Shown: positions 588-56,855 of the stretch, piece after piece
Layout of the letters: each line of letters begins with the position of its first letter
How positions within the stretch are numbered: the stretch's first letter is position 1
From: an uncultured Myxococcales bacterium
GTDB lineage: Bacteria; Myxococcota_A; UBA9042
Direction: 5' to 3'
Assembly (NCBI GenBank): GCA_903840165.1
Contig: CAIMEY010000013.1
Span: 1-56,855, forward strand
Length of the DNA stretch: 56,855 bases
Notes under the pieces: generated by a model
What the model was told of the DNA's origin: nothing
Database searches by the model: none
Seen by the model: only the letters and a program-made list of their open reading frames with translations
Program-made: the position numbers and the translations under genes

Positions 588-607
588 CGTTTCTACAGGA
601 GATCGCG

Positions 608-1789: not shown

Positions 1790-1858
1790 TTGAACGTATA
1801 GATAGATCGATTGCAGTGCGCCCACTGTGCAGCCGTTGACGCGGCACCAAGGAGCTTC

Positions 1859-4555: not shown

Positions 4556-4561
4556 TTATCT

Positions 4562-4577
4562 CTTTGGGCACCAAAGC
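4562..4577 (-). repeat. Intergenic palindromic element, copy A
   Basis: The plus strand reads CTTTGGGCACCAAAGC: two 6-base arms, CTTTGG and CCAAAG, around a 3-base centre. On the minus strand it is GCTTTGGTGCCCAAAG, the orientation used here to compare copies. It lies in the 77-base gap between the glycosidase stop and the esterase start, about 55 bases before the latter. A second small palindrome, AAAGCGCTTT, overlaps its right end. Related copies are at 41622, 42368, 43004 and 56667. Confidence 0.7.
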
Positions 4578-4632
4578 GCTTTTTTGCCCTCTCGGCGCTG
4601 TCCAAACAGCCCGTCGGCACCGGAGACGAACG

Positions 4633-14031: not shown

Positions 14032-14165
14032 ATGTGCGTGTACGAGCGCCACGTTCGCCGTTTCCGGCGTTCAGACAGACAGGAGCGCTTGGCAACCCCG
14101 CAAGCCGGTGCGATGATCGAGCCAGCGACTACACGCAGGCGGCCCTTGGCGAGGCAGAAGGTTTC

Positions 14166-15296
14166 ATGATTTCAAAGACTTTACTCGTTGGTATACAACT
14201 GTGTTTTTTGACCATGGCGCTAGGCTGCAGCAGCAGCAAGACCTCACAAACCACCAGTGATTCTGCATCCTTTGCCGACGTCGACGCGGCGATTGACAGT
14301 ACCGGGTCAGACGCCACACCTACAGCCGATGCCAATGGCGCAGCCGACTCAGCCGAAACAGCTAGCAGTCTGCCGAGTTACATTGACGTCGCCGACACAG
14401 CCAGCATCGAGACAGCCGATCCGCAGCGCGTGACCGTTATGACGTTCAACCTGATGTGCTCATTTTGCATGAATTCCACGCATTTAGAGTGGGATCAGGA
14501 CTGGGCCTTGCGCAAGCCCATGATCCGCGACATCTTCCTACGCCATTCGCCAGATCTCATTGGTATCCAAGAGTTACAGGAGTTCGTCCCCTACCCGCCG
14601 GCCGACCTGCCGGACAATCCGACGATGGACCAGCCGCTACAGATCACGGCCCCCGAATTCGCGTATGATTTCGAGTTCTACCATCACAAGGCCGGGGACC
14701 TGCTGGATTCCGACTACGACGACGCCACCGTCTTTTGGAAGAAGGCGCGCTTTGACAAGCTGGAAAGTGGTGTGTTTTGGCTGAGTCCGACGCCCGAGCT
14801 GGCCTTCTCGACCGGATTCAAACAGCCGCAGGAGCCGCGCCTTGTGGTTTGGGTCCTGCTGCACGACAAGACGACCAGCAAGGATTTCTACTTTGCAAAC
14901 ACGCACTACGACAACAACGCGCCCAGTCAGGCCTTGTCCGCGCCGCTGACGCTGCAGCAGTTCGCCCCGCTGCTGGCCAAGCATCCCCTTATTTTTGCAG
15001 GAGATTTCAATGCCAACTCCAAACACGTCGCCTACGCCACCTTGACCCAAGGCGACAAGGGCCAAGGCCCGTCCCTGCAGGATTCCCACAACCTTGCGAA
15101 ACAAAAAGCTATTCTTACCAATGTGACTCCGGCACCGCTGACCCTCGACACGCTGGAAGACATCGACCATATCTTCTTGGGCGGCGCGACCTTTGACGTC
15201 ACGTGGTGGGTGACCGACACGTGGCGCTATACAGCCAAGGTGGAAGGCCCGACAGACCACAACGGGCCCATTATCACGTCAGTGCATTGGCAGTAG
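14166..15296 (+). CDS. Lipoprotein of the endonuclease/exonuclease/phosphatase (EEP) family
   Basis: ATG 14166 with AAGG just upstream; 376 residues. The signal peptide ends in TMALGC (Cys21), then a ~75-residue Ser/Thr/Asp/Ala linker. The catalytic fold follows with every EEP landmark in order: VMTFNLMC, LIGIQELQE (metal-binding Glu), DATVFWKK, ANTHYDN, AGDFNANS, DIDHIFLGG and TDHNGP. Members are Mg-dependent phosphodiesterases such as nucleases, sphingomyelinases or inositol phosphatases. As a surface lipoprotein it may degrade extracellular DNA or lipids; the substrate cannot be told. Confidence 0.85.
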   Translation: MISKTLLVGIQLCFLTMALGCSSSKTSQTTSDSASFADVDAAIDSTGSDATPTADANGAADSAETASSLPSYIDVADTASIETADPQRVTVMTFNLMCSFCMNSTHLEWDQDWALRKPMIRDIFLRHSPDLIGIQELQEFVPYPPADLPDNPTMDQPLQITAPEFAYDFEFYHHKAGDLLDSDYDDATVFWKKARFDKLESGVFWLSPTPELAFSTGFKQPQEPRLVVWVLLHDKTTSKDFYFANTHYDNNAPSQALSAPLTLQQFAPLLAKHPLIFAGDFNANSKHVAYATLTQGDKGQGPSLQDSHNLAKQKAILTNVTPAPLTLDTLEDIDHIFLGGATFDVTWWVTDTWRYTAKVEGPTDHNGPIITSVHWQ

Positions 15297-16265: not shown

Positions 16266-16892
16266 CTACTTGGTGTAGACGCAGGTGCCGTCGACGCAGG
16301 CCGGCGCGGGTGCCATGCACTTGGGCGTGCTGTAGCCGCACGTAGCGGAAAAATTCACAGAAATGCAATACTTGTCGTCCAATTTGGCCAACGCAGCCGC
16401 AAAGGCCGCGGCCGAGTCAGCGTTCAGCGCGACGCCACAAGTCCCCTGGCACGCCGTACCACTTGGAACTACGACGCAATCGCTATCCTGACCACAGCCG
16501 CCGTGGCTAAGTGCGGCTTCCGTCAGGGCCGCCTGCAATGCAGCAAGGTCGGCGTTGCAGTCCAAAACGCTTCCAGAATCAGTTGTTGTCTCAGTGGAAT
16601 CCACGCCACCATGGGGCACCGAGTCGGCCGCCGCATCCGTTGCGCTCACTGCCCCATCTGCGTCAACCGCGTCAGCGGTCGCCACCGTGGCGGCATCGAC
16701 CGGAGTCGACGAATCTGCTGTAAATACTGGGCCATCACCCAAGGATGTCTCATCGGCGCCGGTGACGTCGCTGGTCGTTGCGGCATCAACTGACAAAGTG
16801 GATGATTTTGTGGATGAACTGCAGGCTGCGGCGGCCACAAGTGCGCACCAAAGTGCAGTGTATACCAATGAGTTAAATGCCTGATATTTCAC
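16266..16892 (-). CDS. Small lipoprotein with cysteine-rich C-terminal domain
   Basis: GTG 16892 is preferred because GGAG lies five bases upstream; an in-frame ATG at 16904 has no site. 208 residues. The lipobox is VAAAAC (Cys24), followed by ~90 residues rich in Asp, Ala, Thr and Ser. The C-terminal ~100 residues contain about nine cysteines (CNADL, GGCGQDSDCVVV, CQGTCG, KYC, TCGYSTPKC, ACVDGTC), a disulfide-stabilised domain common in myxobacterial lipoproteins. It starts 25 bases after modC and may be the last gene of that operon. Function unknown. Confidence 0.75.
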   Translation of the reverse strand: MKYQAFNSLVYTALWCALVAAAACSSSTKSSTLSVDAATTSDVTGADETSLGDGPVFTADSSTPVDAATVATADAVDADGAVSATDAAADSVPHGGVDSTETTTDSGSVLDCNADLAALQAALTEAALSHGGCGQDSDCVVVPSGTACQGTCGVALNADSAAAFAAALAKLDDKYCISVNFSATCGYSTPKCMAPAPACVDGTCVYTK

Positions 16893-16917
16893 TTTTTCTC
16901 CCATTCCAAAGTCGCTT

Positions 16918-17577
16918 TTACGCGCCCTCAGTCAAACACCCGTTGTGCAAGGTCCAATGCTGCTGGGCCACCTGCGCCAACTCTGCTTCATCATGGCTGA
17001 CATACAAGCACATAACCACTTGATCTCGCCACGTTGCCTGGAGGTAGCGCAGAATCCTCGCCCGCAGTTCCGGGTCAACGGCGGCCAGCGGCTCATCGAG
17101 GACCAACAGGCGCGGACGACGGGCCAGGGCTCGCGCCAACGCCACCCGCTGCCTTTCGCCACCCGACAAGGTTGCGACGGGCCGCTGCCAGAGAGGGTCT
17201 AGCAGCAAAGCCTCTGTCATCGCAGCGAATTCTGGCGTGTTCTCGGCCCCACTCTTGGAGCCCAGGGCAAAGGTGACGTTGGCGCGAACACTAAGATGCG
17301 GAAACAAGTCGCTGTGTTGTGGCACATAGCCGACGTCGCGCAGGTGCACGGGACGCGATAGCCGAGTTGAAGTGTTGAGCCATAGCTCACTACCCACTGC
17401 TACAGTCCCTTTTGCCTTGGGGTCCAAGCCGACAACTGCTCGTAGAAGCGTCGTTTTCCCGGCCCCAGTCTGCCCAGTAACGGCCACTATCGCTGGCTGC
17501 GCCCACTGCGCGCGCACGGTCAGGCTGAGGACCGGCGTCTGCACTTGGAGGTCGATCAACAATGCAGGCGGATTCAC
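16918..17577 (-). CDS. modC: Molybdate ABC transporter ATP-binding protein, short form
   Basis: 219 residues, starting GTG 17577 in a GTGA overlap with modB. Walker A is GQTGAGKTTLL, the signature LSGGERQRVALARAL, Walker B RLLVLDEPLAAVD and the switch His in YVSHDEAE. It powers molybdate (or tungstate) uptake with ModAB. Typical ModC proteins of about 350 residues carry a C-terminal TOBE/Mop molybdate-sensing domain; this one ends right after the ATPase domain, so that feedback is absent. Confidence 0.9.
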   Translation of the reverse strand: MNPPALLIDLQVQTPVLSLTVRAQWAQPAIVAVTGQTGAGKTTLLRAVVGLDPKAKGTVAVGSELWLNTSTRLSRPVHLRDVGYVPQHSDLFPHLSVRANVTFALGSKSGAENTPEFAAMTEALLLDPLWQRPVATLSGGERQRVALARALARRPRLLVLDEPLAAVDPELRARILRYLQATWRDQVVMCLYVSHDEAELAQVAQQHWTLHNGCLTEGA

Positions 17578-25926: not shown

Positions 25927-26124
25927 CGAGTACCCCTATCCGTCGTCAATTCCGTGCCAAGGTGCCCGGTGAGACCCGTTCAGCGACTGCTGCTGCGCGC
26001 CCCAAAAAGTGGCGTTTCCCTCGCGCAGAATCCCTGTCATTCCAAGATGATAGCTCTATGGACACCACGGGATTAGCCGTCGTCCAGCGCGCAGGATACC
26101 CCTGCCCCGCCCTGCGGTGCAAAT

Positions 26125-27805: not shown

Positions 27806-30800
27806 CTAGGGAACAGTGGGATTTGCTTTGCCCGGTGCGGACTTGTCATCTTGGCGTCCGTGCCCCGCGGCGGCAGGGGCAGCAGGCGCCTCGACCGGTG
27901 CATTGCCTTGGAATTCCTTCGCTTTCTGCTGAAGTTCGCTGCGCAGACGCCGATCGGCCAAGTCGACGCTCTGGAAGGCGAACTGCTTGTACTGCCGGCC
28001 CAGGTCCGCGCTGAGCTGCCCTGCTTGCTGCGCTGTGTCGATTTCCCGATACAACTTAAGGACATCCACAGCACACGCCGCCATCTCGTGGAGCGTGAAC
28101 GGGCCCGGCAGGTCGAGCAAGGGGGACACGTCCGTCTCGTCGCCATAGGTCTTGAGCGCCGCGACCGAAGCATCATCCCCGAACGCTTCCAACGCCTTAA
28201 TCGCAATCACTTTTCCCATGGGCAGATTGCCTGCCAGGGCTGCCAAAAGGTGAGGGCGCGCCTGGTCCACACCGATGGGAACAACGTACTCTTGGGCCAG
28301 CTGTGCCAGCTCCAACTTGACGTCTTCCTTGTGAAATTGGCCCAACCGATAGTGTTCATCGCTGGCCATCGCCGTCAGCACCTTGCGCAGGCCACGGGTC
28401 TGCCCGAACTTGATCAGGAGACGCGCAGCCAAGAAGCGGTCGTCCGCATTGCGTAGCCCAAGGAGTCGTTGCAGATGCGCTTCGAGCGAGTCGTATAACG
28501 TCGCGAGATCACTTTGCCCTGGCTCCAGCTTGGACTGGCGGCCAAGGCGGTCCAGTTCACCCGCAATGGTGGCCATGAGGCCCGCCGTCGCTGCCACGTC
28601 CTTGGGATCATCTGATTTTTCAAGGACTTCATGCACATCCAGCAGCAGGAGAACAGCCAGCGGCGAATGAACCGTGGCCAGGGCGCGCAAATCCTCCGCG
28701 TCGGGCAGGACACCACTGGCAAACAGGCGGCGATATCCCTGTAATAGCGCGTGGGTTGCTTCGGGCATCGCCACCTGAATGAGGGCCTGAGCGGCCTCAT
28801 GCCGACGCACATCCGCCGCCAACAGGTGCTCGGCGGCCGGTGCAACCAAGGGCCCCAGCTTGAGCAGGTCGCCGTCGCCCAGGCGGTGCAGGGCCAACGC
28901 TCGGACTTGGGCCGAATCTGCCTTGGTGTCCACATCGACAAACGCCCAATCTGCAACGGCTTTTTGCACCGAAATCGCGTCATCGTCGTTCAGATCTGAA
29001 CGCGTCGGCCCGGCCGCCATGTCGGTCGCCATGGGCAACAGGACAGAACGCACAGATGGCTGCGGATCTGTAGCCCAATTCGCGGCTTGTGCTGCTAAGG
29101 GCGCCTGCTTGAGGACGCGCGTCAGCAAGGGCCAAAGGTCCTTAGCCACAACGCGCCAATCTGCAGCGCCACGGCCGAGTTCCAGCACGTGCCCAGCCAA
29201 GGGCCCTTGGGCAGCCAGCGCCAACGCCTGTGCGCGATAGACCGCGGCATGAGACTGATCCTGCACGTAGTGCCGCAAAGCGCCGATTGCACTGGCATTG
29301 TGCGCCCAGAGACTGAAAGCGTCCAAGCGACCGGCGTCCCCCATTTCGCTATCCGACCCGATCAGGACGCGGGTGACGGCCCCACTGACGTCGCGCAAAA
29401 CAAGACGTGGACATCTTGCATCCAGGGCGGGACGAGCCGCGGCCAGATCGCCAACAATCACAGTCGTTAACTCGGCATGACCGATCCCGGCTTGCGCGGC
29501 CTGCTGCACATCTGCGGCCGTCGCACCGTCGATCCGTGCCAACATCTGTTCATAGCTATCCGCAGGTAATCCATAAAGGAATCCTGCCACGGTCAGATCG
29601 GCCACGTTGTCTGGCGTGGCCAGGGACATCGCAAACTGACCGGACAAATACCGTTTGGCAGCCGCAAGTTCGGCAGGAGTCGGCTCGGTCGAGCGTAGTG
29701 TCTGCAATTGTTCGGCAATCGCCGCCAGCGCATCCCCTACGTGCGCGGAGGCTACTTCGGTCGATACGAGCCATTGCCCGCCGGCGCGAAGCCCTTCAAA
29801 CGCGGAATAAACACCGTAGGTAAGCCCTTTCTTTTCACGCAGATCAGCAAATAGCCGCGACGATGCCGAACCACCGAGCACCTGATTGGCTACTTGCAGC
29901 AAGGGCCAACGAGCGTCACTCCTCGCAAACCCTTGTTCTGCAACGATAATGGCCGACTGCGGTGCCCCTGTCAGATCGACAACGTGACAAGCCTGCGCAG
30001 CGGTTTCTCGTGGCGGCTCGGGCCGGGGAGCGACGGCAGCAGTCAGCAGCTGACTGGCGAAAAGCGCCTGAATATCCGCAGAAAAGGCCGACAGTTGAAC
30101 ATCGCCGACCACAATCAGGTCGGTATTGCCTAGGTGAAAGCTCGTCTGATAGGCTTCAAGCACCTGTTTTCGTTGAATTTGTCCAAGACTTGCCGCCGTA
30201 GGACCGCGTTGGCCATAGGGGTGCGTCGGCCCAAAGACCAAGGACCGCGACAATCGAGCAGCCACCGCCGCCGCATCGCTGTCCTCGTTGCGCAGCGCAG
30301 CCAGATAGCGCGCCTTGAGGGTATCCAAGGCCCCCTTGTCTAACTGGGCTTGGGTCAAGAGTTCTTTGATCAGCGGCAGTAGTCCTGGCAACTGATGACT
30401 TAGCACCTGGGCATCGACAACCACCGCATCAGCCAGCACCGTGACCCGCAATTCCGCGCCCAATCGGCCAATTTCATCCGCAAATGCCGCACCTGGATGG
30501 GTCTTGGTGCCTTGGGCCATGAGGTCGGCCGTGATCAACAGCGTCCCCTGCGGCCAAGGCGTCTGGCCCGCCACGCCACGCAGGCTTCGGCCCCCGGGAA
30601 TCAGCCAACGCAGGAAAACAACGGGTGAATCATGCTGCTCGACGACATGTAGATTGAGCGTAGTCGCGCTTGCGCCGGGCGGATTGAGCGTAACTGACTG
30701 AACTTGAGGCAGGATGACCCGCCCCAAGGTGGCTGGCTCCGGGCGCGGCAGCCAGGTGTCCACATGGTCATCTACTTGTTTAGCAACAGGTTTAACCTGT

Positions 30801-30883: not shown

Positions 30884-32850
30884 TGTCCACCCCCTTTTTC
30901 TTTAGATTTTTTGGACTTATCAACCTTACGCAGGGGCTTGAGTTCCACTTCGTCCTTGTCCTTGGACGCAGCACCTGGCAAGCCAACGGCTGACGGGGCA
31001 GCCACTGGAGGCATCGGAATAACCACAGGACCTTCCACGGGTTTCGCTCTCAAATCGGCCGCAGCTTTGTCGGCCGCAGCTTTGTCGGCCGCAGCTTTGT
31101 CCGCCGCAACTTTGTCCGCCGCAGCTTTGTCCGCCGCAGCTTTGTCCGCCGCAACTTTGTCCGCCGCAGCTTTGTCCGCCGCAGCTTTGTCCGCCATGGC
31201 TTTGTCCGCCGCAGCTTTGTCTGCCGTAGCCTTGTCCGCAACTGCCTTATCTATTGCGGCTTTGTCGGACACGGCTTTGTCGACCAGCGCCTTTTCCCGC
31301 GCTGCATTGATCGCTTGGGCGTGTTCGGCCTCGGCAGTGGCCCGTTCAGCAGCCAGCTTGGCCTGGGCGTCCGTCTTGATCAAGGCCTGCTCAGACCGTG
31401 TCACGTAGTCAGGCTTTTGCCCCGAATTCCCTGTCTTTGCCATGCCGACGGGCAAGCTATCCAGTTCGATTTCGCGGTTCCACGACAGCCAGCGTCGCGC
31501 CGCTCGCGACACATCGGCGGCCGTGACGGCGCGGTAGCTGGGCAGCCACTGGTCGATCTTGTGCGCGTCACCCGCAGAAAGCTCAAATTCCGCTAGTAAT
31601 TCAGCGCGTCTGCCCGCCGAAAGGCCGCCAAAGACATAGGCCGATTCAAAGGCAACTTTGGCGCGTCGCAACTCCGCCTCTGTGGGGCCCTTGGCGATAA
31701 TATCCTGAATTTCCAGGCGAATCGCCTTCTTCGCTTCCACCATCGCGGCGGCGCTGCCTTGGGCCATGTGTACCTGGACGTCCCACAGGTCCCAGGTTCG
31801 CCGGTCCCAACCGCTCACCTCGACGCTGGTGGCCAGTGCCTTGTCCTGGGTGAGACGCCGCTGCAGTCGGCTGGCATCGCCACCGCCGAGAATTTCAGCA
31901 AGCAAATCTAAGGCGTACGAGTCTGGCTCCGGCGCCGCGGGTACTTTCCAGGCCAAGTGGAAGCCCGGCGTCTTGGCCAACTTTTCGCTCAGTTGCTGGT
32001 AGGCATGGTGGCCTGATTCCTGTTCTACAATCGGCGTATGCACAGGTTCGGCACGCCGAGTGACGGGGCCAAAGTACTTTCCAACCAGGGTCCTTGCCGT
32101 CTCCGGTGTCACGTCGCCGACCAACACGATCACGCAATTGTTGGGTGAATACCAAGTCTTCCAAAAATCCTGGAAGGCTTGAAGCGGCGCATCACGTACG
32201 TCCGCGACCTCACCGATGGTCGGATGCTGCAAGGCTGGGGTCGTGAAAGCGAGCTTGGGCAACTCAAGAAAAGCCATACCGTACGGACGATTCTCCATTC
32301 GTTCGCTGCGTTCCGCCAGCACGGCCTGCCGTTGGTTGTCGACGGCGGATGCCTCGATCTTGAGGTGTTGCAGTCGCTCCGCCTCCAGCCATAGGGCGAC
32401 TTCGAGCGCAGATTTCGGCACGATCTCATAGTACCAAGTGCGATCGGTCGAGGTGTTGGCGTTGACTTCAGCCCCCTGGGCCTCTAGGCGCTGCACGTGC
32501 TCCATCTTGGCCACGTGAGCGCTGCCTTCAAACATGAGATGCTCAAAGAAATGAGCCAGTCCCGTGCGTCCAGGCTGTTCGTCGCGGGAACCGACGTCGA
32601 CCATCAACCCCACAGCCACGAGCGGCGCCTTGGGGTCCGACTGCACGATGACGCGAAGGCCGTTATCCAATTGAAACTTTTCAATCTTTACAGCCGGCGG
32701 CAGGGGCCACGGACGCTCAACGACAACGGTCACGGGCGGCGGTGGCGGAGCCTTCTTCGGCCTAGCCAGCGCCGCGGACGCGGTCAAGGAGCCAACGACC
32801 AACATCATCAGACAATTTCGCGCTCGATTGCGGTGCAAACCTCGTGCCAT
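30880..32850 (-). CDS. Active M16 zinc metallopeptidase with Ala-Asp-Lys repeat tail
   Basis: 656 residues; ATG 32850 follows GGAGGTG. A signal peptide ends near AALARPKK, then a Pro-rich stretch. The inverted zinc motif is HFFEH (100-104) with the third ligand Glu180 in AVLAERSE, 76 residues on, as expected for pitrilysin-family enzymes. The second lobe carries the Arg/Tyr-type ligand-binding region. After ~residue 500 comes a highly charged helical tail with 15 five-residue xDKxx repeats. It overlaps the inactive partner gene and is probably secreted to the periplasm with it. Confidence 0.87.
   Translation of the reverse strand: MARGLHRNRARNCLMMLVVGSLTASAALARPKKAPPPPPVTVVVERPWPLPPAVKIEKFQLDNGLRVIVQSDPKAPLVAVGLMVDVGSRDEQPGRTGLAHFFEHLMFEGSAHVAKMEHVQRLEAQGAEVNANTSTDRTWYYEIVPKSALEVALWLEAERLQHLKIEASAVDNQRQAVLAERSERMENRPYGMAFLELPKLAFTTPALQHPTIGEVADVRDAPLQAFQDFWKTWYSPNNCVIVLVGDVTPETARTLVGKYFGPVTRRAEPVHTPIVEQESGHHAYQQLSEKLAKTPGFHLAWKVPAAPEPDSYALDLLAEILGGGDASRLQRRLTQDKALATSVEVSGWDRRTWDLWDVQVHMAQGSAAAMVEAKKAIRLEIQDIIAKGPTEAELRRAKVAFESAYVFGGLSAGRRAELLAEFELSAGDAHKIDQWLPSYRAVTAADVSRAARRWLSWNREIELDSLPVGMAKTGNSGQKPDYVTRSEQALIKTDAQAKLAAERATAEAEHAQAINAAREKALVDKAVSDKAAIDKAVADKATADKAAADKAMADKAAADKAAADKVAADKAAADKAAADKVAADKAAADKAAADKAAADLRAKPVEGPVVIPMPPVAAPSAVGLPGAASKDKDEVELKPLRKVDKSKKSKEKGGGQ
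31060..31284 (-). repeat. 15-base tandem repeat, 15 copies, inside the M16 peptidase gene
   Basis: The unit on the plus strand is GCCGCAGCTTTGTCC with few substitutions, coding ADKAA on the minus strand. Fifteen xDKxx units make 225 bases. The central copies are nearly identical and the flanking ones degenerate. Predicted to form a rigid single or coiled helix. Confidence 0.88.
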
Positions 32851-33467: not shown

Positions 33468-33791
33468 CGGACTCCTTGAGGGTAACAGCTTGCAATGTAA
33501 ACGTAATTGAGCACCGTCGCCACCTACCTGAGCCGCCGAGTGCCAAGCATTGCCCGCGGTTAGCAATTCGGGCGACGCCGGAGTCGCCGCCAGCGGCCCA
33601 AGCGCTGCCGATCGGTATGTCGAACCCGGGGACCCAGGGGCAGACACGCTGCTAGGCTTGAAATACGTAGCAAAATCTCCCCAGGCAGGTGGCCCAGGGT
33701 TGGACGCCTTACATTGTCATCGGTCTGGGCCGGGGCGACAAGCGGCCTGCGATTTTGCATCCGCGCGCGGGGCAGCTAGACTGCAATTTGC
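33468..33791. other. 324-base divergent intergenic region
   Basis: It separates the 180-residue hypothetical gene (minus) from the TPR lipoprotein gene (plus). A good ribosome-binding site for the minus gene lies at its left edge. I see no coding sequence, repeat or convincing promoter in it. Confidence 0.5.
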
Positions 33792-34904
33792 ATGGGTATC
33801 CACCGAGACAACGCTGCATGGCCGCGAAGGAAACCCCCTCCTCGAACCGAGGACGCGGGCCTAGCTGCGTCTGAGTCCCGCCTCGTAGTCAAGCGTGCCG
33901 ACCTATGGCGAATCTGGGCAATATCGCTTGCGGTTGTGGCATGCACGCACGTGTCGCCACGCTCGGACCGGGATCGCGGACTAGCAGAGACCCCTGTAGC
34001 CCAAGGGATTGAAACAGAACCAGTTCGTGGCGATCTGCGCGCCGGCGTTCAGGCCTACGAGGACCAAGACTACGACGGGGCCCAAGCGGCATTGCAGGCC
34101 CATTTGCAGCAGCACCCGCGTTCGGCCGCGGCGGTGTATGAGCTGGGCTTGGTCGCCATGGCCAAGGGGCAGTGGGAACTAGCGCGGCAGCACTTTGAGA
34201 AAGCCCTTGTTTTAAATCCGCAAATGCACGGCGCGCTAAGCAACCAAGGCGTGGCGCTCCTGCATCTGGGCGAGGATCTGGCAGCCCTGCGCGCGATGGA
34301 AGGCGCCTTGGCCCTGGCACCGGATGATCCCAGGGTGCTTGGCAATTTGGCAATGGCAAGGTTGAGACGCGGCCTGTGGTCGGAGGCGATCGACGCCTAC
34401 CAGCGGGCGATTTCCCTGGCGCCAAGCCATGGTACCCTGCTGTACGACTTGGCGCTGGCGTGGATGATTCGGCAACAGTGGCCTCAGGCGCTCACGGCGC
34501 TGGAATCGGCACTGCAGGTTCGACCCCAGTTCGCGTTGGCGCGCGCAGCGAAAGTAGCTTGTTTACAAGGGATTGGCGATCTCAAGGCCGCAGAGGTCTA
34601 CGCGCGCGAAAGCCTCGATGTGCTGCAAGAACCGCTACCTGACAACCAACTCGTGCTAGGGCGCGTGCTAATTGCGCAACGACGCGTCGACGACGGGTTG
34701 GCGGTGCTGCGCGATGCGGTCAAACTCGACCCCCTGCACGCGCCAAGTCAGTTGGCATTGGCTGAAGTGCTCGATGCCGCCGGCAAGCGCAGTCAAGCGA
34801 TTGAATGGTATCAGAAATGGCTGGAGAACAAGAATCACCGGCTTGAAGATGTGGAACGCATTACGGCGCGTGTGACCAAGTTGCAGGAGTTGGGACCCCA
34901 ATGA
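33792..34904 (+). CDS. TPR-repeat lipoprotein
   Basis: 370 residues if it starts at ATG 33792, the only in-frame candidate I see before the lipobox SLAVVAC (Cys51); this gives an unusually long n-region, so the start is uncertain. From residue ~80 there are six or seven tetratricopeptide repeats, e.g. AAAVYELGLVAMAKGQWELARQ, HGALSNQGVALLHLGEDLAA and VLGNLAMARLRRGLWSEAID. TPRs assemble protein complexes, here probably at the outer membrane. The stop overlaps the start of the next gene (ATGA). Confidence 0.8.
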   Translation: MGIHRDNAAWPRRKPPPRTEDAGLAASESRLVVKRADLWRIWAISLAVVACTHVSPRSDRDRGLAETPVAQGIETEPVRGDLRAGVQAYEDQDYDGAQAALQAHLQQHPRSAAAVYELGLVAMAKGQWELARQHFEKALVLNPQMHGALSNQGVALLHLGEDLAALRAMEGALALAPDDPRVLGNLAMARLRRGLWSEAIDAYQRAISLAPSHGTLLYDLALAWMIRQQWPQALTALESALQVRPQFALARAAKVACLQGIGDLKAAEVYARESLDVLQEPLPDNQLVLGRVLIAQRRVDDGLAVLRDAVKLDPLHAPSQLALAEVLDAAGKRSQAIEWYQKWLENKNHRLEDVERITARVTKLQELGPQ

Positions 34905-35695
34905 GTAAACCCCTTGAATTGACAATATTTTACCTACTCCTTGGTGCAACCATTGCCAGCGCCGGTTGCGGCGTTGCCCCTCTGTATCGGCCAGCGAGGC
35001 CCTTGGACCCGGGCGAGAACGAAGTGGCCGCAAGCTTGGCGACAGAACGTACTGGAATCAGTGCATTAGCCTTTAGCAACGGTGCAGACACGGCCACCCA
35101 TGCCGCCACGACCCGCACCACCGCAGCTCCCCAACTCCATATAGCCCGTGGCTTTGGCCATGATTTGGACGCGACGGCGCGCCTATCCTTCTCAGCAAAC
35201 TGGATACCCTATGCAGGGTTAGGCGGACAGTATCAGTTCTACAACGCCGGCCCGTGGCACCTCGCTGTGGCCCCCGAAATTGGCGGTCGTCCCGCGGCGT
35301 TCAGTGAACCACGGCTCGGACAGGTCCTGTTGCCCGTGGTCGCGAGTTGGGACTATGACGCCAATTGGGGCGTGACAGCTGGTCTACATGCAGGTTATCG
35401 CTGGACAAATCTTGGAGTACAGGACCCGCACGCGCTAGCGTTAAACGATTTCGTCCTGCATGGGGTTTCCGGCGCAACGTATGGCGGCGGACTAGGCGTC
35501 GATTATCATACCGAAATCTTGAGAGTGCAGGGCATGCTGACCTGGATGCACACGGGCGGCTTTGTCAGCAGCCCGGGCAATCTCGACTACCCGATCAACG
35601 CCCTGGGCCTGACGATCAGCGGCGCCTACCTATTTGGCAAAGAAATCAAGAAGATGGAGAAGACGGACTACGACATCGACCGACTCATCCGCTAA
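34901..35695 (+). CDS. Putative outer-membrane beta-barrel-like lipoprotein
   Basis: 264 residues; ATG 34901 overlaps the TPR gene stop, so the two are coupled. A signal peptide ends in IASAGC (Cys23). The rest alternates polar and hydrophobic residues with many Gly, Tyr and Trp (WIPYAGLGGQYQFY, GVTAGLHAGYRWTN, GLTISGAYLFG), a pattern of amphipathic beta strands. No family is recognised. A structural or secretion-linked outer-membrane role with the TPR protein is inferred. Confidence 0.7.
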   Translation: MSKPLELTIFYLLLGATIASAGCGVAPLYRPARPLDPGENEVAASLATERTGISALAFSNGADTATHAATTRTTAAPQLHIARGFGHDLDATARLSFSANWIPYAGLGGQYQFYNAGPWHLAVAPEIGGRPAAFSEPRLGQVLLPVVASWDYDANWGVTAGLHAGYRWTNLGVQDPHALALNDFVLHGVSGATYGGGLGVDYHTEILRVQGMLTWMHTGGFVSSPGNLDYPINALGLTISGAYLFGKEIKKMEKTDYDIDRLIR

Positions 35696-35726
35696 ATGAC
35701 GCGATCCCCCTGTAGTTTCCGTTGGT

Positions 35727-37118
35727 TTACCCCAAGGTATGCACCGCGGCGACCGGTGCTTGGGACGCAGAAATTGCGGGGCCGATCACGCGACTGGGAC
35801 GCCCTAAAATCCAATAAAATCTAAGCGCTAACGACGTGGACACCACGAACAAAGCGATGGTCAAACCCCACCAAAGTGGGTCGGGGCCGAGACGCAGCAC
35901 GAAAGCGCCCACGTAGGCTACAGGCAGCCCGAGCAGGCCAAAACCGAGCACATTGAACCACATCGGTACCCGCGTATCGTCCAGGCCGCGCAGAACGCCA
36001 AAGCCGATCGCCTGCGTGCCGTCGGCTAGCTGAAAACCCGCGGCAATTGTGAGAAAATGGGCCGCCATCGTCCAAACCTCTGGCGAGGCGTCGGGTAAGT
36101 AGATTTTGGCAATGGCGTCCCGGCCGATCAACATCAAAATCCCCGAAATTACGCTAAAAACAACGCCTACAGCCAGAGCCGTCCAACCGGCACGGGCCAC
36201 AGCCGCAGCATCGCGCCGACCGACGGCATGTCCCACACGCATGGCGGCGGCCGTCCCTACCGAGAAAGGCACCTGAAATCCGAGTGCCGCAACGGTCATC
36301 GCCACTTCGTGGGCAGCCAATGCTTGGGCACCCAGCAGGCCCATCCACAGGGTAATCAGCACAAATCCAGTCACTTCTAGACCATACTGCAAGCCCAGAG
36401 GCAGCCCGGAACGAAGCAAACGCTTGAGCATAGGCCAGCTGGGTAGGTCGAACAGGGCGCGATAGGCGGAAAACGCTTTGGATTGGCGGATATAGATGGC
36501 CACGATGCCCACCAGAATGATTCGGCACACCACCGAGGCCAGTCCAATGCCACCGACGCCGAGATTCGGTAGTCCCCACAGGCCCTTGGCGAGGCCAGCG
36601 CAGAGGACGGCGTGGACGATGTTGGCGATCACGGCCCCGCCCATGATGATCCCCGGGCGCCCTACTGCCGAGGCGAACGACCGGTAGCCCGCGTAGGCCA
36701 AGGCCGGCAGAAGCCCTGGAGCGGCTGCATGCAGGTATTGCTCAACCTCAACAAGCAGTTGGCTATCCTGGCCCATGGCGCGCAGAACCCAGGGTGAGTA
36801 CCACAACAGCACGGTCAAGGGCACGCCGATGATCACGGCCATCCACAGGCCCTGCCGCAGAATTCGGCCCGCGAGCGCTAGGTCTCCCTGACCAACCGCT
36901 TTAGAAACATGGGGATCGAGCCCGGACATCGCGCCGTAGCCCGACATCAGGACAAAGGCAAACGTCGTGGCGCCTAAGGCCTGAGCGGCCAGTTGGTGAA
37001 CGCCGATGTGGCCAGCCACGACCGTTCCTACGACGCCCATCATCATTTGAGCCAGTTGCGCGACAACAAGCGGCGCGGACAGCACCGATAGGGCCTTGAT
37101 CTCGCGACGAATGGGCAT
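35727..37118 (-). CDS. MATE-family multidrug/cation antiporter
   Basis: 463 residues from ATG 37118, chosen because MPIRREIKALSVLSAPLVVA is the normal MATE beginning; ATG 37130 and longer forms are possible and none has a clear ribosome-binding site. About twelve helices in two homologous halves, with GYGAMSGLDPHVSKAVGQGD in the first half and VPFSVGTAAAMRVGHAVG in the second, both typical of MATE transporters that export organic compounds against H+ or Na+. The 5' end faces a divergent gene at 37229. Confidence 0.87.
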   Translation of the reverse strand: MPIRREIKALSVLSAPLVVAQLAQMMMGVVGTVVAGHIGVHQLAAQALGATTFAFVLMSGYGAMSGLDPHVSKAVGQGDLALAGRILRQGLWMAVIIGVPLTVLLWYSPWVLRAMGQDSQLLVEVEQYLHAAAPGLLPALAYAGYRSFASAVGRPGIIMGGAVIANIVHAVLCAGLAKGLWGLPNLGVGGIGLASVVCRIILVGIVAIYIRQSKAFSAYRALFDLPSWPMLKRLLRSGLPLGLQYGLEVTGFVLITLWMGLLGAQALAAHEVAMTVAALGFQVPFSVGTAAAMRVGHAVGRRDAAAVARAGWTALAVGVVFSVISGILMLIGRDAIAKIYLPDASPEVWTMAAHFLTIAAGFQLADGTQAIGFGVLRGLDDTRVPMWFNVLGFGLLGLPVAYVGAFVLRLGPDPLWWGLTIALFVVSTSLALRFYWILGRPSRVIGPAISASQAPVAAVHTLG

Positions 37119-38137: not shown

Positions 38138-39313
38138 TCAAGGCTTGTACTGGACCGTGACCAGGGCCCCTGGGTTCTGTAGCCACGCCTGAAATGGCGT
38201 GTGCATACCACTGAGATAAGCCTTTAGAAAAAGTGCAGAAACCTGTGCCGCAAGGTCGCGTTGCTGATCATGTCCCAGCTGCGGATCATTGCCCAGGGGT
38301 GGCACAGGCCGACAACTGCCGTTGACACCCCAGGCCGCCAGCGTCTGCGCCAAGGGGTCGTCCAAGCCGGTTGGCGACGCATCCGCCGGATCGTCCATCG
38401 CCATGTCGGTCATTTGTAGATGGGTGCCGCCGCGCAAGAGGACGAGAAAGGCCGGCTCTTGGGCAAACTCGAAGGCCCGCGCGGGGTTATTGGCCGCCGG
38501 CACCAAGGCATCCAGCGTCGCGCCCATGGCGAGCAGGGGAACGGACCGTGTCGCGAAGAACTCGGGGGCAAAGAAGCACGAATCTCCTGACATATCCACG
38601 ACCGCGCGCAGGCGTTTGTCGTGCTCGTCGCTGCGATAAGCCGCTAATAAGGCTACAGTTCCTCCGGTTGAATGGCCTACAACGGCGTACCCAGCCGCAG
38701 GGTCTACGTGCCCAGCCAGCCAAGCCGGAATCCCCGTGCCCAAGACCTGGTCGGCGAGAAAGCGAAGATCGCCCGTCTGATCAGCCACATGCCAATCCGA
38801 AGGCCCGCCATCTGTCAGCAGAGACGTCAGCGGGAAATCGGCCGCGACGACGATGTAGCCAAAGGCCGCTAAACGTTTGCACAATCCAGAATAGACCTTC
38901 GGCGTGCCTGAGGAACCGTGCACAAACAGGACAACGCCAAATACGCCCTTTGCCACTGGAGCCAGCATTGCCGCACTTTGGCCTGCCAATTGCTCTGTAG
39001 GATACCAGACTTGGACAGGTAGATGCCGACCGGCATGGGCTGCCGCATCGCCATTGGCCGGGGTTGACCGCGCCGTGTCCGTCCAATCGGCCGACCAAGT
39101 CGCCACGGCCCAGGTCGGGTCAACCGGGAGCTCGGCCGTGTCTGCGGACAGTGCATCTTGGGAGGCTATATCCACTTTTATATCAACAGATTGACTCTTT
39201 GGGGTACAACCCGATTCTGCGGCCAAAACGATGGCTAAAGTGGTCAAGCACAGTCCACTTAGCCAGCCAGGCAGCGTTCGAGGCGCAGCGCTCGCGAGGT
39301 CGGTTCCCATCAT
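38138..39313 (-). CDS. Lipoprotein alpha/beta hydrolase, paralogue of the gene at 608
   Basis: 391 residues; two adjacent ATGs (39313, 39310). The lipobox region is ESGC (Cys36), followed by an acidic linker. Catalytic features: VQVWYPTEQ, LFVHGSSG, VVAADFPL, the elbow GHSTGG with Ser215, GATLDALVP as the acid loop and RGGTHLQM as the His loop. It belongs to the dienelactone-hydrolase/PAF-acetylhydrolase-like group. It begins 7 bases after the DUF4139 gene, so both are likely in one operon. Substrate unknown. Confidence 0.82.
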   Translation of the reverse strand: MMGTDLASAAPRTLPGWLSGLCLTTLAIVLAAESGCTPKSQSVDIKVDIASQDALSADTAELPVDPTWAVATWSADWTDTARSTPANGDAAAHAGRHLPVQVWYPTEQLAGQSAAMLAPVAKGVFGVVLFVHGSSGTPKVYSGLCKRLAAFGYIVVAADFPLTSLLTDGGPSDWHVADQTGDLRFLADQVLGTGIPAWLAGHVDPAAGYAVVGHSTGGTVALLAAYRSDEHDKRLRAVVDMSGDSCFFAPEFFATRSVPLLAMGATLDALVPAANNPARAFEFAQEPAFLVLLRGGTHLQMTDMAMDDPADASPTGLDDPLAQTLAAWGVNGSCRPVPPLGNDPQLGHDQQRDLAAQVSALFLKAYLSGMHTPFQAWLQNPGALVTVQYKP

Positions 39314-41531: not shown

Positions 41532-41621
41532 GGTGCATTCCTAGCGGCGCTGTGCTGCGGCGTGGCGAGCAGTGTAGGCGTTGCGGACGGGGGGCACAAT
41601 GGCGGAATTTGACGTGAAAGC

Positions 41622-41655
41622 GCTTTGGTGTCCACGGGGACAAACCATTGAATTA
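41622..41655 (+). repeat. Intergenic palindromic element, copy D (extended)
   Basis: The core GCTTTGGTGTCCACGG has a damaged right arm (CACGG for CAAAG). The flank GACAAACCATTGAATTA matches copy E almost base for base, so conservation extends past the palindrome. It lies ~90 bases before the DUF4139 start codon. Confidence 0.65.
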
Positions 41656-41896
41656 CAACGCAAATCAACGCTAGATGGCGCGCCTAGTCCACCTAACCCA
41701 AAATGCTTTCCGGGTGACCGCAAAGCTCACTGCGTTGTGGGCTTTGCAGCCGGGGACCCGGCCCAATGCAGGGGTGAGCCCACACGCGCGGGCGTGGAGA
41801 GGACTCCGCGGTGCGCAGCGCATGAGCCGTGCCAAGTCTGTCACGGCGAAAGTGGAGATGGCGCGCCCCTTTGAAACTAGAAGCAAACGCCGAGTC

Positions 41897-41924
41897 TCTA
41901 ACCCGGAAGGAACTTCGGGTTAGA
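41897..41924 (-). terminator. Stem-loop just after the CX4CH lipoprotein gene
   Basis: TCTAACCCG (41897-41905) pairs perfectly with CGGGTTAGA (41916-41924), a 9-base-pair stem with a 10-base loop, starting five bases past the stop codon. There is no following T-run, so it may be a 3' stability hairpin or a weak terminator. Confidence 0.5.
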
Positions 41925-41928
41925 CGTG

Positions 41929-42336
41929 CTAGTTATCGAGCGCCCCGGCCGAAATCCATTGACCAATTGCGTCAATCTTGTCCTGTTCCAGCGCCCCACT
42001 CGCCGCGGGCATTCGCTGCGTTTGGCCTACCCCGTGGCTAAGAACCTGATAGATCATGCTCTTGTCCAGGGCCCCGGGAATCACGCGCGCCCACTTCGGC
42101 GACGATGGGTCCGTAGCGGGCACGTGCACCAAGACGTCGTACACGTGGGTGCCGTCCAGCGCCAAACCCGCGGCAGGGCTCGGGCCGCCGTGGCAGTAGC
42201 TATTGGCGCAGCTCGGCAAGAAGATATCTGCTTGAATTGCCGACAGTTTAGCCTGGTACGTGTGGACCGAGCTCACGGGCGTAGTTGTGCACGCCACCAG
42301 TAGGCAAAGTGACCCCAAATAGGTGGTTCTCAGCAC
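41929..42336 (-). CDS. Small lipoprotein with CX4CH cytochrome-c-like motif
   Basis: GTG 42336 has GAGG six bases upstream; an upstream in-frame TTG (42348) is part of that site. 135 residues. The lipobox is LLVAC (Cys16). The motif PSCANSYCHGG (Cys43, Cys48, His49) has four residues between the cysteines, as in planctomycete-type cytochrome c-like domains, then GLALDG and a late MPAASGALEQDKIDAIGQWISAGA with a possible distal Met. Such proteins may bind heme c in a non-canonical way or be heme-free; unresolved. It sits between two Cys/copper-type lipoprotein genes. Confidence 0.78.
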   Translation of the reverse strand: MLRTTYLGSLCLLVACTTTPVSSVHTYQAKLSAIQADIFLPSCANSYCHGGPSPAAGLALDGTHVYDVLVHVPATDPSSPKWARVIPGALDKSMIYQVLSHGVGQTQRMPAASGALEQDKIDAIGQWISAGALDN

Positions 42337-42367
42337 GTCATTCCTCAACTATTCCAAGATCTTTACT

Positions 42368-42383
42368 CTTTGGGCACCAAAGC
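42368..42383 (-). repeat. Intergenic palindromic element, copy B
   Basis: CTTTGGGCACCAAAGC on the plus strand, identical over 16 bases to copy A. It occupies the 58-base gap between two lipoprotein genes, ~30 bases upstream of the GTG at 42336. Flank on the minus strand: GAGTAAAGATC. Confidence 0.7.
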
Positions 42384-42394
42384 AAAAATCAGCG

Positions 42395-42931
42395 CTAATC
42401 AGCGTCGCCACTGCCGTCAGCACCGCCCCCAGCCGCTCCCGACGTCACGTCAGCAGCAGTGGTCACGGCATCCCCCGTGCCCGAAGCGTCGGAACCGGCC
42501 AAACACGCTGTCAGAATGCACCCCTTGCCGGCCGTTGGATGGTCAGCGCTGCCGACGCACGTGGCCCCGAGGCCACAGTCGGAGTCATCGACGCAAGGCA
42601 AAGTGCAAAAAGCGCTGGTCGGGTCTTGGTTTGCAGTGCACAGAATGGCACCCATCTGGCCATTGAGCGAGTTGTTCGCAGTGCACTCGCTGCCCCCCTT
42701 GGTGCAGGGCATCCCGACGTGGTAGGGATTGAGGCACCAGCCGGCGTAGCAGGTCTCTAGAGCGGGCGTGGGATCTTGGCACTTTGAGCTTGCAGAATCA
42801 GCGGATAAAGCATCAGACGTCGAGCCGGCAGCGGTATTGGTCTTGCTGGAACAGGCCGCCGAACAGGCGATTACCAGCACGACAAGGGACAGCATTCGGG
42901 CACGCATGGCGGTCATTCGCAATTGCAACAT
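42395..42931 (-). CDS. Cysteine-rich lipoprotein, unknown function
   Basis: 178 residues; ATG 42931 with GGAG five bases upstream (ATGs at residues 6, 9 and 13 are alternatives). The signal peptide offers two lipobox-like cysteines (VIAC, CSAAC). The core has about ten cysteines in pairs, with CYAGWCLNPYHVGMPC, CTANQDPTSAFCTLPC and DDSDCGLGATC, resembling small disulfide-rich domains common in myxobacterial lipoproteins. The C-terminus is Gly/Asp/Ala-rich and disordered. It is flanked by element copies B and C. Confidence 0.75.
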   Translation of the reverse strand: MLQLRMTAMRARMLSLVVLVIACSAACSSKTNTAAGSTSDALSADSASSKCQDPTPALETCYAGWCLNPYHVGMPCTKGGSECTANNSLNGQMGAILCTANQDPTSAFCTLPCVDDSDCGLGATCVGSADHPTAGKGCILTACLAGSDASGTGDAVTTAADVTSGAAGGGADGSGDAD

Positions 42932-43003
42932 GAGGGCTCCATCGGGGCCGAGCCGAGACGCGTAGGGTGGGTCGCGCGAACGGCGAAATTCGGGGCAAAA
43001 AAT

Positions 43004-43043
43004 GCTTTGGTGTCCAAAGGGTCAAAGCCATGGTATTATTGAC
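43004..43043 (+). repeat. Intergenic palindromic element, copy C (extended)
   Basis: Core GCTTTGGTGTCCAAAG with a perfect 6+6 palindrome, then GGTCAAAGCCATGGTATTAT, similar to the flanks of copies D and E. It lies in the 118-base gap before the Cys-rich lipoprotein gene, ~75 bases from its ATG. Read on the minus strand it contains TTTGACCCTTTGGACACC. Confidence 0.7.
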
Positions 43044-43049
43044 GAACTA

Positions 43050-43994
43050 CTACTCATTGTCGCACACAATCAGCCCCTCTGGACGCGCCGGAAAGTAGTA
43101 CGCGACCGAGGCGCACATCTCGTGCGGGAACTTGATATCGGCAGCCGTCGAATTGTTCCAACTGCATGTAATGCTATAGGTATCCCCTGGCGCGAGCTGC
43201 AGCGCGTTGGCCAGGCCGTAGTTGGTCAGGGGCGGCTTGTCGCGGTACTGGGCCTGCCAGGGGTCGACCTTGTACAAATTGTCAATCTTTCCGGGGGTTG
43301 CCGCCCGCTCAAGGTCTAGGGTCACGCTCTTGCCCCACTGGTGCATGTGCCCCATGACCGTCAACAACTTGATATCCCCGGGAATCTTGCACTTCGTCGT
43401 CCGTGTCAGGGCCTGACCCGCAGGCAACTTAATGCCGCCGTCATTGAGCACCAAGTAGCTGACTTCTTGAGGCTTTGTGCCCGCGGGTGCAAACTTGAAG
43501 ACGCCGACGTCCTGGGTCTCAATGTCTTGGTCTGTCGTATTCAAGTAGTGAGATTGCATCACGATATGCGCGTCTTTGGGCAACTTCACGGCGTAGCCAT
43601 CCGGCAGCAGCGGCGTGTCGCTCAGTTCGGGCAGCACCAGGGGCTGAAGGTCAACCATCTGCGCGACGTCGGTGCAATCAAATACCGTGCCGGGCTTGTA
43701 GGAAGAGCCTGATCGCAAAGCCAAAAGGTGGTGACCATTAGCCCCCTGTAGCGGTTCAAAGTGCGTCACCATGTAGTCCTGATCGGGCACCCAATCGGGC
43801 ACCCAGCAGGTCATGGTATCCGAGTGCGCTTTGACGACGTGCTTGGGTTGCACAAGGAATTTGCCTTGTTCGGCGGTCAGGTTCGTCGGTGCCACCGCGT
43901 ACTGCTTGACGGGCCCGGTCGGTGCGTCGAGGGTTGTCGACGTGCACGCGACGATAGGCATAGACAGCAGAGCAAAGCCTGTGATTAGTTTCAT
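43050..43994 (-). CDS. Copper type II monooxygenase-like lipoprotein (PHM/DBM fold)
   Basis: 314 residues; ATG 43994 with GAGG just upstream. The lipobox is IVAC (Cys17). All six ligand types of peptidylglycine/dopamine beta-monooxygenases are visible with similar spacing: His88-His89 in GANGHHLL and His149 in MQSHYL (CuH site), His216 and His218 in GHMHQWG and Met293 in HEMC (CuM site). These enzymes hydroxylate C-H bonds using O2 and an electron donor. An adjacent CX4CH lipoprotein could supply electrons (inference). Substrate unknown. Confidence 0.82.
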   Translation of the reverse strand: MKLITGFALLSMPIVACTSTTLDAPTGPVKQYAVAPTNLTAEQGKFLVQPKHVVKAHSDTMTCWVPDWVPDQDYMVTHFEPLQGANGHHLLALRSGSSYKPGTVFDCTDVAQMVDLQPLVLPELSDTPLLPDGYAVKLPKDAHIVMQSHYLNTTDQDIETQDVGVFKFAPAGTKPQEVSYLVLNDGGIKLPAGQALTRTTKCKIPGDIKLLTVMGHMHQWGKSVTLDLERAATPGKIDNLYKVDPWQAQYRDKPPLTNYGLANALQLAPGDTYSITCSWNNSTAADIKFPHEMCASVAYYFPARPEGLIVCDNE

Positions 43995-48020: not shown

Positions 48021-48098
48021 GGATGCAGCACCGCGCAGCCAAGACGGCTCACTTCCCGTAAATACAAACAGTTAACACAGTGCAAACCGCCACGGCTT

Positions 48099-48114
48099 TG
48101 GCACGTTTGCTGCA
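48099..48114 (+). promoter_or_regulatory. Sigma-54 type (-24/-12) promoter of the beta-propeller lipoprotein gene
   Basis: TGGCACG-TTTG-CTGCA: GG at 48100-48101 and GC at 48112-48113 are exactly 12 bases apart, and 11 of the 12 consensus positions of TGGCACG-N4-TTGCA agree. A start about 12 bases on would leave a leader of ~38 bases before ATG 48163. Sigma-54 with enhancer-binding activators is widely used in Myxococcota. Confidence 0.65.
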
Positions 48115-54390: not shown

Positions 54391-54488
54391 CGGCAAGGTT
54401 GGGCCGTGAAAATGGCAGATACCTCGTATTTTCAATATGTTGAGACTCTGGTATGCAAACCTGCTGCAAACCAGCGAGGAAGGGCGTA

Positions 54489-56516: not shown

Positions 56517-56855
56517 TACTTTGCAATAACTTATGAAAATTTGGACACGCTCTCACAATTCGGCTGGTTTCGCGCGGCCTCGACGGCTGGGACGACGCCA
56601 AGACGGGCGATCACGGCCGGCGGGGCTAGTTGGGGCTTGGGGCGGAGGTGCTCGCTGTTCGAATTCGCCTTGGTGTCCAAAGTGACAAATCCATGAATTA
56701 AAACAACAAACCCTCGTCCCGCGTGTCACTCAGCTACGCCCGCCACCAAGCCTGCGGCCAACTTTTTTCAACTTTTTTTCGCCGCGCGCGACCAGATTTC
56801 AGATTTCGAGCGAACACAGACTAGGAGTGCCGCAGTTTTGGCACGCCTGGAGCCC
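56517..56855. other. 339-base terminal intergenic stretch
   Basis: No coding sequence is convincing. It holds copy E of the intergenic element (56667-56704), a direct repeat CAACTTTTTT at about 56760-56782 and, at 56839-56853, TGGCACG followed by a GC 12 bases after the GG, a poor sigma-54-like match. A gene may begin beyond the window. Confidence 0.5.
56667..56704 (+). repeat. Intergenic palindromic element, copy E (extended)
   Basis: Core GCCTTGGTGTCCAAAG (one change in the left arm), then TGACAAATCCATGAATTA, nearly the same as copy D. It is downstream of asnB with no gene to the right in the window. Confidence 0.65.

Follow-up and report, generated by a model that had tools for sequence, protein, structure and literature searches.

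A short palindrome recurs between the genes of the 56,855-bp stretch of DNA analysed here (contig C13 in full; hereafter the window), which belongs to the draft genome of an uncultured Myxococcales bacterium (5.73 Mb in 123 contigs, 93% complete, 0.26% contaminated), and its repetition raises the question of whether it serves the genes beside it, has spread as a repeat or acts for the chromosome as a whole. A first-pass annotation, made from the window alone, had listed five copies and offered an operator or regulon marker, or a small dispersed repeat, as explanations; the regional clustering of the copies and the dif site described below were out of its sight. We favour a different reading, to which we give a probability of about 0.6 on the evidence of sequence: the element would be a lineage-specific array of sites in the replication-terminus domain that works like matS/MatP without being a member of that system, each site being a predicted matS-like landing site for a putative DNA-wrapping protein.

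Copies of the element in the window

All five copies listed in the first-pass annotation are present where it placed them (A to E in Table 1), and their common right flank (..GACAAA..TGAATTA) is borne out. Its claim that they share one core holds exactly for A, B and D, which carry CTTTGG-N3-CCAAAG, whereas E departs from this pattern by one mismatch and C by two. Five copies was an undercount: scanned with a matrix trained only on other contigs, the window has 18 at 12 bits or more, and the reversed window sequence has none at 10 bits or more with the leave-contig-out position weight matrix. The core pattern with up to two mismatches matches the window eight times against 2.7 expected, a count reached by 1 of 100 shuffles. 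One protein encoded in the window (43050-43994, minus strand) is lipoprotein-like, with a weak match to the copper monooxygenase C-terminal family (24.4 bits, cut-off 23).

Table 1 Copies of the element in the window, scored with a matrix from other contigs
Feature	Span	Core	Strand	Score (bits)	Remark
Element copy A	4511..4594	4562-4576	-	46.7
Element copy	14135..14218	14186-14200	-	32.6	Start of a called gene
Weak copy	16541..16624	16592-16606	-	15.3
Element copy	16838..16921	16856-16870	+	36.4
Weaker copy	26005..26088	26056-26070	-	20.1
Weaker copy	28903..28986	28921-28935	+	24.1	Inside called gene
Weak copy	31662..31745	31680-31694	+	15.4
Weak copy	33773..33856	33791-33805	+	13.0
Element copy	34871..34954	34889-34903	+	26.3
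Weak copy	35681..35764	35732-35746	-	12.3
Weaker copy	38181..38264	38199-38213	+	21.8	Inside called gene near 3' end
Element copy	39146..39229	39197-39211	-	44.0	Absent from earlier list
Element copy C	41605..41688	41623-41637	+	57.2
Element copy B	42317..42400	42368-42382	-	55.4
Element copy D	42987..43070	43005-43019	+	62.3
Weak copy	48027..48110	48078-48092	-	13.0
Weaker copy	54395..54478	54446-54460	-	23.7
Element copy E	56650..56733	56668-56682	+	52.4

Copies cluster on a few contigs

Across the whole genome the exact palindrome occurs at 20 places, against one for the reversed pattern, and 18 of these lie on six contigs (C13, C69, C72, C101, C109 and C119) that together hold 365 kb, or 6.4% of the genome. 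Eighteen stretches (1,193,823 bp) were then scanned with an 84-position matrix from whose training the scanned contig was always left out, with a threshold of 12 bits and double calls merged; the initial site list had been drawn from all six contigs jointly, which makes for a mild leak. The scan yielded 133 sites, including 36 on C119, 25 on C69, 18 on C13, 11 on C101 and 6 each on C72 and C109, and the same 18 stretches reversed yielded none at 10 bits or more. At the same 12-bit threshold, C110 has nine sites at 203-231 kb, whereas its 51-174 kb are empty, and C2 has seven below 40 kb, with none from there to 200 kb; no site was found in 180 kb of C51 or in a sampled 20 kb of C31, which carries dnaA.

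The stretches of C19, C60, C11, C17, C55, C37 and C47 were chosen for hits to R1, a model built from 52 of these sites, and C51 and C110 for exact-palindrome hits, so that none of their densities is a random sample; C2 was included for its length and C31 because it carries dnaA. R1 matched 62 places at E 1e-4 or better, 58 of them on the six contigs. The 52 training sites match R1 by construction, and our counts rest on the exact-palindrome and leave-contig-out scans rather than on R1.

Two other accounts of the clustering were rejected. Misbinned contigs are at odds with density edges that fall inside single contigs and with a GC content that is alike across nine contigs (0.603-0.621). An origin domain or a parS cluster is at odds with the absence of sites from the 20 kb scanned of the dnaA contig, and two exact parS-type patterns found no match in the 1.19 Mb examined. 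Near-identical elements with their flanks stand at contig ends (C69:63204 and C72:27682; C101:120 and C119:120), where the assembly may break at repeats that contain or adjoin the element; the C69 and C72 copies of this kind are not independent of each other.

A predicted dif site lies between two copies

The proteobacterial dif consensus with three mismatches gave no hit in 22 genomes, and a looser matrix then located the site: over 1.19 Mb it singled out one place, C119:20996-21023 on the minus strand, at 24.3 bits, the runner-up scoring 13.4. The 22-bp core of the site has no second occurrence in this genome, and the place qualifies as dif, the 28-bp XerC/XerD site of which each chromosome has one. 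The Anaeromyxobacter and Myxococcus dif sites, as given in PMC2731167, are close to it. With one to three mismatches the core is found in 12 of 21 family relatives (the one in G003 is doubtful), once per genome except in G007, which has two about 900 bp apart. The gene for NAD synthase adjoins dif on C119, and the same gene start, read by eye, adjoins dif in at least five relatives (loci L131, L132, L135, L139 and L140).

Two of these relatives drew attention for other reasons. The dif-like site of G003:C33 (L163-L168), with three mismatches, lies in DNA of 28.6% GC over the 120 kb fetched, against 60-70% in other family stretches, and belongs perhaps to a dif-targeting mobile element or to a contaminant. 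The two dif-like sites at G007:C257:5615 and 6516 (L141 and L142) have partly identical flanks, as might result from the insertion of a small element at dif.

Copies of the element bracket the predicted dif, at 20888 and 21089 of C119. Their density is 0.66 sites per kb in the 21 kb to its left and, to its right, 0.40 at 0-42 kb and 0.06 at 42-119 kb. This is the one contig, in a genome of 123, on which distance from dif can be measured; confinement around dif of the matS/MatP type would fit the fall of density with distance on C119 and the edges within other contigs.

For the remaining contigs we used synteny, that is, protein matches to a relative's 414-kb dif contig, 400 kb of which was searched, with ORF counts that include overlapping frames. 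The C17 stretch (12 of 36 ORFs, at 119-161 kb), C109 (19 of 64), C72 (5 of 29) and C119 in part (12 of 143) map around the relative's dif with some scatter; C51 does not map to that contig (0 of 187), and the site-free C47 stretch maps slightly (3 of 23). The window contig (2 of 59) and C69 (2 of 65) are essentially off it, so the place of the window contig in the terminus domain is taken from element density and not from synteny. That the clustered contigs all lie near the terminus is what we infer. GC skew gave too weak a signal for confirmation of the terminus, and the site-free 20 kb of C31 does not fix the angle between the dnaA contig and the site cluster.

The element is a fixed, asymmetric site

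The consensus, taken from a position weight matrix iterated from 18 seed sites on six contigs, is roughly aaAnncGCTTTGGTGTCCAAAGRGWCAAAnCCTTGAAATTAnAnnnnAAT. In it the palindrome makes up the left-hand side and is joined in a fixed layout to GWYAA-N4-TTGAWATTA; the whole site is asymmetric, free of gaps and about 85 bp long. Fifty-two copies aligned over 61 columns with zero gaps; T16, G17, C22, C23 and A33 are invariant, and near-invariant and random columns alternate at a fixed spacing, which argues for selection of a binding site rather than for the decay of a repeat. A structured RNA element was considered and rejected: the consensus fold of the 52 copies had 0 predicted pairs and no covarying hairpin, and a search of the window against Rfam at gathering scores gave no match. 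By the same results the palindrome arms are more likely to be bases read in duplex DNA than the two sides of a hairpin.

The A/T content around the palindrome was profiled over 100 sites, those close to stretch ends being dropped. It peaks near -16, -5, 19, 30, 41, 52 and 63 from the palindrome start and fades outwards, with a period of 10.95 bp on the right (90% bootstrap 10.85-11.0) and 11.05 bp on the left (10.85-11.3). Far out on that side (-70 to -20) the profile is itself periodic at 10.95 bp, with an amplitude reached by 0 of 400 intergenic null sets; in the right far flank (68-110) a periodicity that 1 of 400 null sets reaches is present too, but its 12.35 bp is close to the limit of the fit, and it is therefore not counted as the same rhythm. 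The two arms are 3.4 bp out of phase (95% interval 3.1-3.8) and are thus mirrored about an axis, extending to about 70 bp from the palindrome centre. Axes at 6.97 (the palindrome centre is at 7.0) and at 23.2 (near 22.5, the centre of CAA-N4-TTG) are both allowed, the axis being defined up to multiples of 5.4 bp, and because symmetry of the flanks alone gave 12.5 and not 7.0, we call the axis ambiguous. A mirrored A/T rhythm of about 11 bp has the look of DNA that a protein would wrap.

Close pairs and rival readings of the array

Copies stand close together more often than chance allows: the six contigs contain 22 pairs less than 300 bp apart, against a mean of 8.5 and a maximum of 18 in 1000 simulated runs. 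In all stretches taken together these close pairs are mostly head-to-tail (18 in the same direction, 5 in opposite directions; p 0.011), and among the 18 same-direction pairs under 300 bp the spacing is 138-221 bp in 12 and 69-119 bp in 5.

Such spacings, which amount to one gyrase footprint or somewhat more for most pairs, bear on the main rival, which we consider improbable: the copies would be strong sites of DNA gyrase or topoisomerase IV, with core and phased arms wrapped on the enzyme, and the array would remove supercoils or catenanes at the terminus, much as the strong gyrase site of phage Mu organises the prophage. The E. coli gyrase motif, as presented in PMC6379681, is symmetric, spans 130 bp and has a central part and two arms with a GC periodicity of 10.75 bp. 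The element, with a core and two mirrored arms (10.95 and 11.05 bp, about an ambiguous axis), resembles this motif, and strong gyrase sites share with it a rhythm of A/T and G/C of roughly 11 bp over about 130 bp (PMC6379681). Topoisomerase IV, moreover, acts at dif in E. coli according to PMC4865107.

Set against this, the core of the element is specific, with many near-invariant bases, and far more so than the degenerate E. coli motif, and the element is regionally confined and was not found in relatives that must have gyrase. The centre of its palindrome is odd, whereas the cut made by gyrase is staggered by 4 bp; the ambiguity of the mirror axis and the five pairs only 69-119 bp apart also count against the enzyme. 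When 20 kb of phage Mu were scanned with the flank profile, the annotated gyrase cut site did not stand out: in four settings it scored z 0.75 to 2.15 and ranked 327 to 4518 of 19,861 or 19,881 positions. This comparison of phase uses one reference site, for an enzyme from a different phylum.

The excess of close pairs would also suit a mobile or dispersed repeat of REP or MITE type, specific to the lineage and functionless, that accumulated in one region. We regard this as quite unlikely. The many intergenic copies, known from this genome only, agree with it, as does at least one pair that looks like a duplicated block: C69:26818/26976 and C69:29232/29392 have common flanks and similar sequence between their members, so that the copies are not all independent. 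The DNA between paired copies, compared by eye, is unlike the DNA that comes after them. Decay from a master copy, further, is not what an alignment without indels and with alternating invariant and random columns looks like, nor is there a covarying hairpin, and the confinement of the copies to one region speaks against a repeat as well.

Very improbable, in our judgement, are polar replication-fork barriers (Tus/Ter or RTP-like) or polar sequences that guide FtsK. The location around dif suits either, as does a tendency of the elements on C119 to be oriented outwards from dif (11 minus and 3 plus on its left, 8 minus and 14 plus on its right; Fisher p 0.019, for sites that come in runs and pairs and are not independent). 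A fork trap could hardly tolerate the 8 of 22 sites to the right of dif that are wrongly oriented, and orientation does not switch strictly at dif. FtsK guide sequences are 8-mers, against the 85-bp sites here.

Placement is mostly intergenic and blind to gene direction

For placement relative to genes we took sites of at least 20 bits on the six contigs, merged close double calls and dropped 8 sites at contig edges, which left 73; genes were called with a simple codon-usage caller. Only 26 of the 73 fall in called genes, against 62.8 expected in DNA that is 86% coding (p 7e-23), and the intergenic enrichment that the first-pass annotation proposed to check is thereby confirmed; the 26 are perhaps due in part to the crude gene caller. 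Tandem gaps hold 32 sites, convergent gaps 7 and divergent gaps 8, against 26.1, 5.0 and 15.9 expected. In tandem gaps 15 sites run along the genes and 17 are opposed to them, and 22 of the 32 are closer to the stop of the upstream gene than to the start of the downstream gene.

The least probable of the readings, and one that these figures largely refute, is that the element is an operator or promoter of a regulon. Its palindromic core would fit, and four window copies are indeed no more than about 90 bases from a start codon, as the first-pass annotation had it, when the starts of ORFs are taken. Gene and element are co-oriented in one of these four, however (copy B): the gene near copy A is on the other strand, and the genes at copies C and D run against the element. 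The codon-usage caller also places two of the four start codons further in. With no fixed-orientation link to gene starts across the six contigs, a placement that is blind to direction and closer to stops than to starts, and half the expected number in divergent gaps, the operator reading fails; of the earlier proposal, "small dispersed" is what stands.

Search for the element in relatives

Model R1 found the element in 0 of 51 other genomes of the class at E 1e-4 (under stricter filters, with at most 104 first-look candidates scored per genome), and had no match at E 0.01 in 21 family genomes. At E 0.1, 2 of 35 relatives had one marginal match each (E 0.025 and 0.088). The dif regions of relatives lack the element too, the best of 11 stretches reaching 2.1 bits with the matrix. 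In this genome TTGG-N3-CCAA is present in 50 of 206 intergenic fragments; de novo searches for dyads near dif in three relatives gave no comparable motif, the most frequent of the top-ranked dyads reaching 16 (of 220), so that cross-species conservation is not available as an argument for function. The element is, so far, found in this genome only, and the failure to find it in family relatives suggests that such systems turn over quickly.

A phage origin was rejected as well, one exact degenerate pattern, which fits only 17 of the six-contig copies, having hit nothing among viral contigs; scanned with the same insensitive pattern, the GTDB species collection gave 9 single matches in unrelated records, which we took as chance. 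Among titles and abstract openings of the open-licence PMC literature, no such array appeared.

A relative's contig, G004:C47 (L143-L162), has a different palindrome, TTATCAGCGCTGATAA, which occurs with close variants five times (343446, 344924, 350247, 367628 and 380716), with a shorter variant at 394546. All lie in 52 kb of the 400 kb searched, 173-224 kb from dif, and could be an operator or another domain marker.

A predicted terminus-domain array and its known counterparts

In the reading that we prefer, an array of landing sites in the terminus domain, more than 100 dense copies would mark the contigs of the replication terminus, one of which holds the predicted dif; a putative DNA-wrapping protein would dock on each site and, once docked, would condense or position the terminus region. 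Both the binding and wrapping of the site by a protein and the purpose of terminus organisation are what we infer from the array. A fuller version, put forward more tentatively and at rather less than even odds, is that this lineage has evolved a terminus-domain system of its own, unrelated to MatP, with more than 100 wrapping stations, each consisting of about 85 to 130 bp of phased DNA with a specific core, often in head-to-tail pairs and with one pair bracketing dif; on these a dedicated protein or gyrase would wind and gather the part of the chromosome that is replicated last.

Detailed knowledge of terminus organisation by an array of sites exists for the MatP/matS of enteric bacteria and Vibrio; how other bacteria mark the terminus is described as largely open in PMC7188993. 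A dense and specific array with dif between its copies would offer a DNA bait with which to fish out the protein, and a means of reading the terminus domain from sequence alone.

A first lead comes from the HU/IHF family. The consensus for IHF is WATCAA-N4-TTR, which the inner GWYAA-N4-TTG of the element recalls; in register, TCAA-N4-TTR is present in 12 of 100 sites and WYAA-N4-TTR in 38 of 100, too few for IHF sites proper, and IHF sites have neither the palindrome nor the long arms. An IHF-beta-like protein is encoded 14.7 kb away from dif (C119:35715-35993, which is L055:15715-15993, minus strand); its 92 aa score 96 bits against a family cut-off of 115. This genome has three matches to the family and 14 of 21 relatives have two, neither of which is on the dif contig in G004. 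We treat the protein as a lead, not as evidence.

Among systems that shape the chromosome, architecture-imparting sequences (AIMS) are enriched towards the terminus. They are, as set out in PMC5993296, sequence elements thought to impose chromosome architecture, as the element may be, but they are 8-mers, whereas the element forms sites of about 85 bp confined to one domain. ZapT of Caulobacter, as reported in PMC7188993, resembles our proposal in being a system other than MatP that ties the terminus to a protein through terminus-biased binding; it differs in that the account there lists 10 positions, most of them within reading frames, without a consensus.

The closest counterpart is matS, which is palindromic, like the core here. 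A search for MatP (PF06303) gave 0 matches in this genome, which is 93% complete, with the E. coli control detected. According to PMC3330122, 800 kb contain 23 copies of the 13-bp matS, whereas the element is about 85 bp long, asymmetric, helically phased and far denser, and comes without a MatP gene; its whole target is thus not a 13-bp site of the matS kind. What the two would have in common, on the description in PMC3330122, is the plan itself, with copies of one site spread over a large domain around the terminus.
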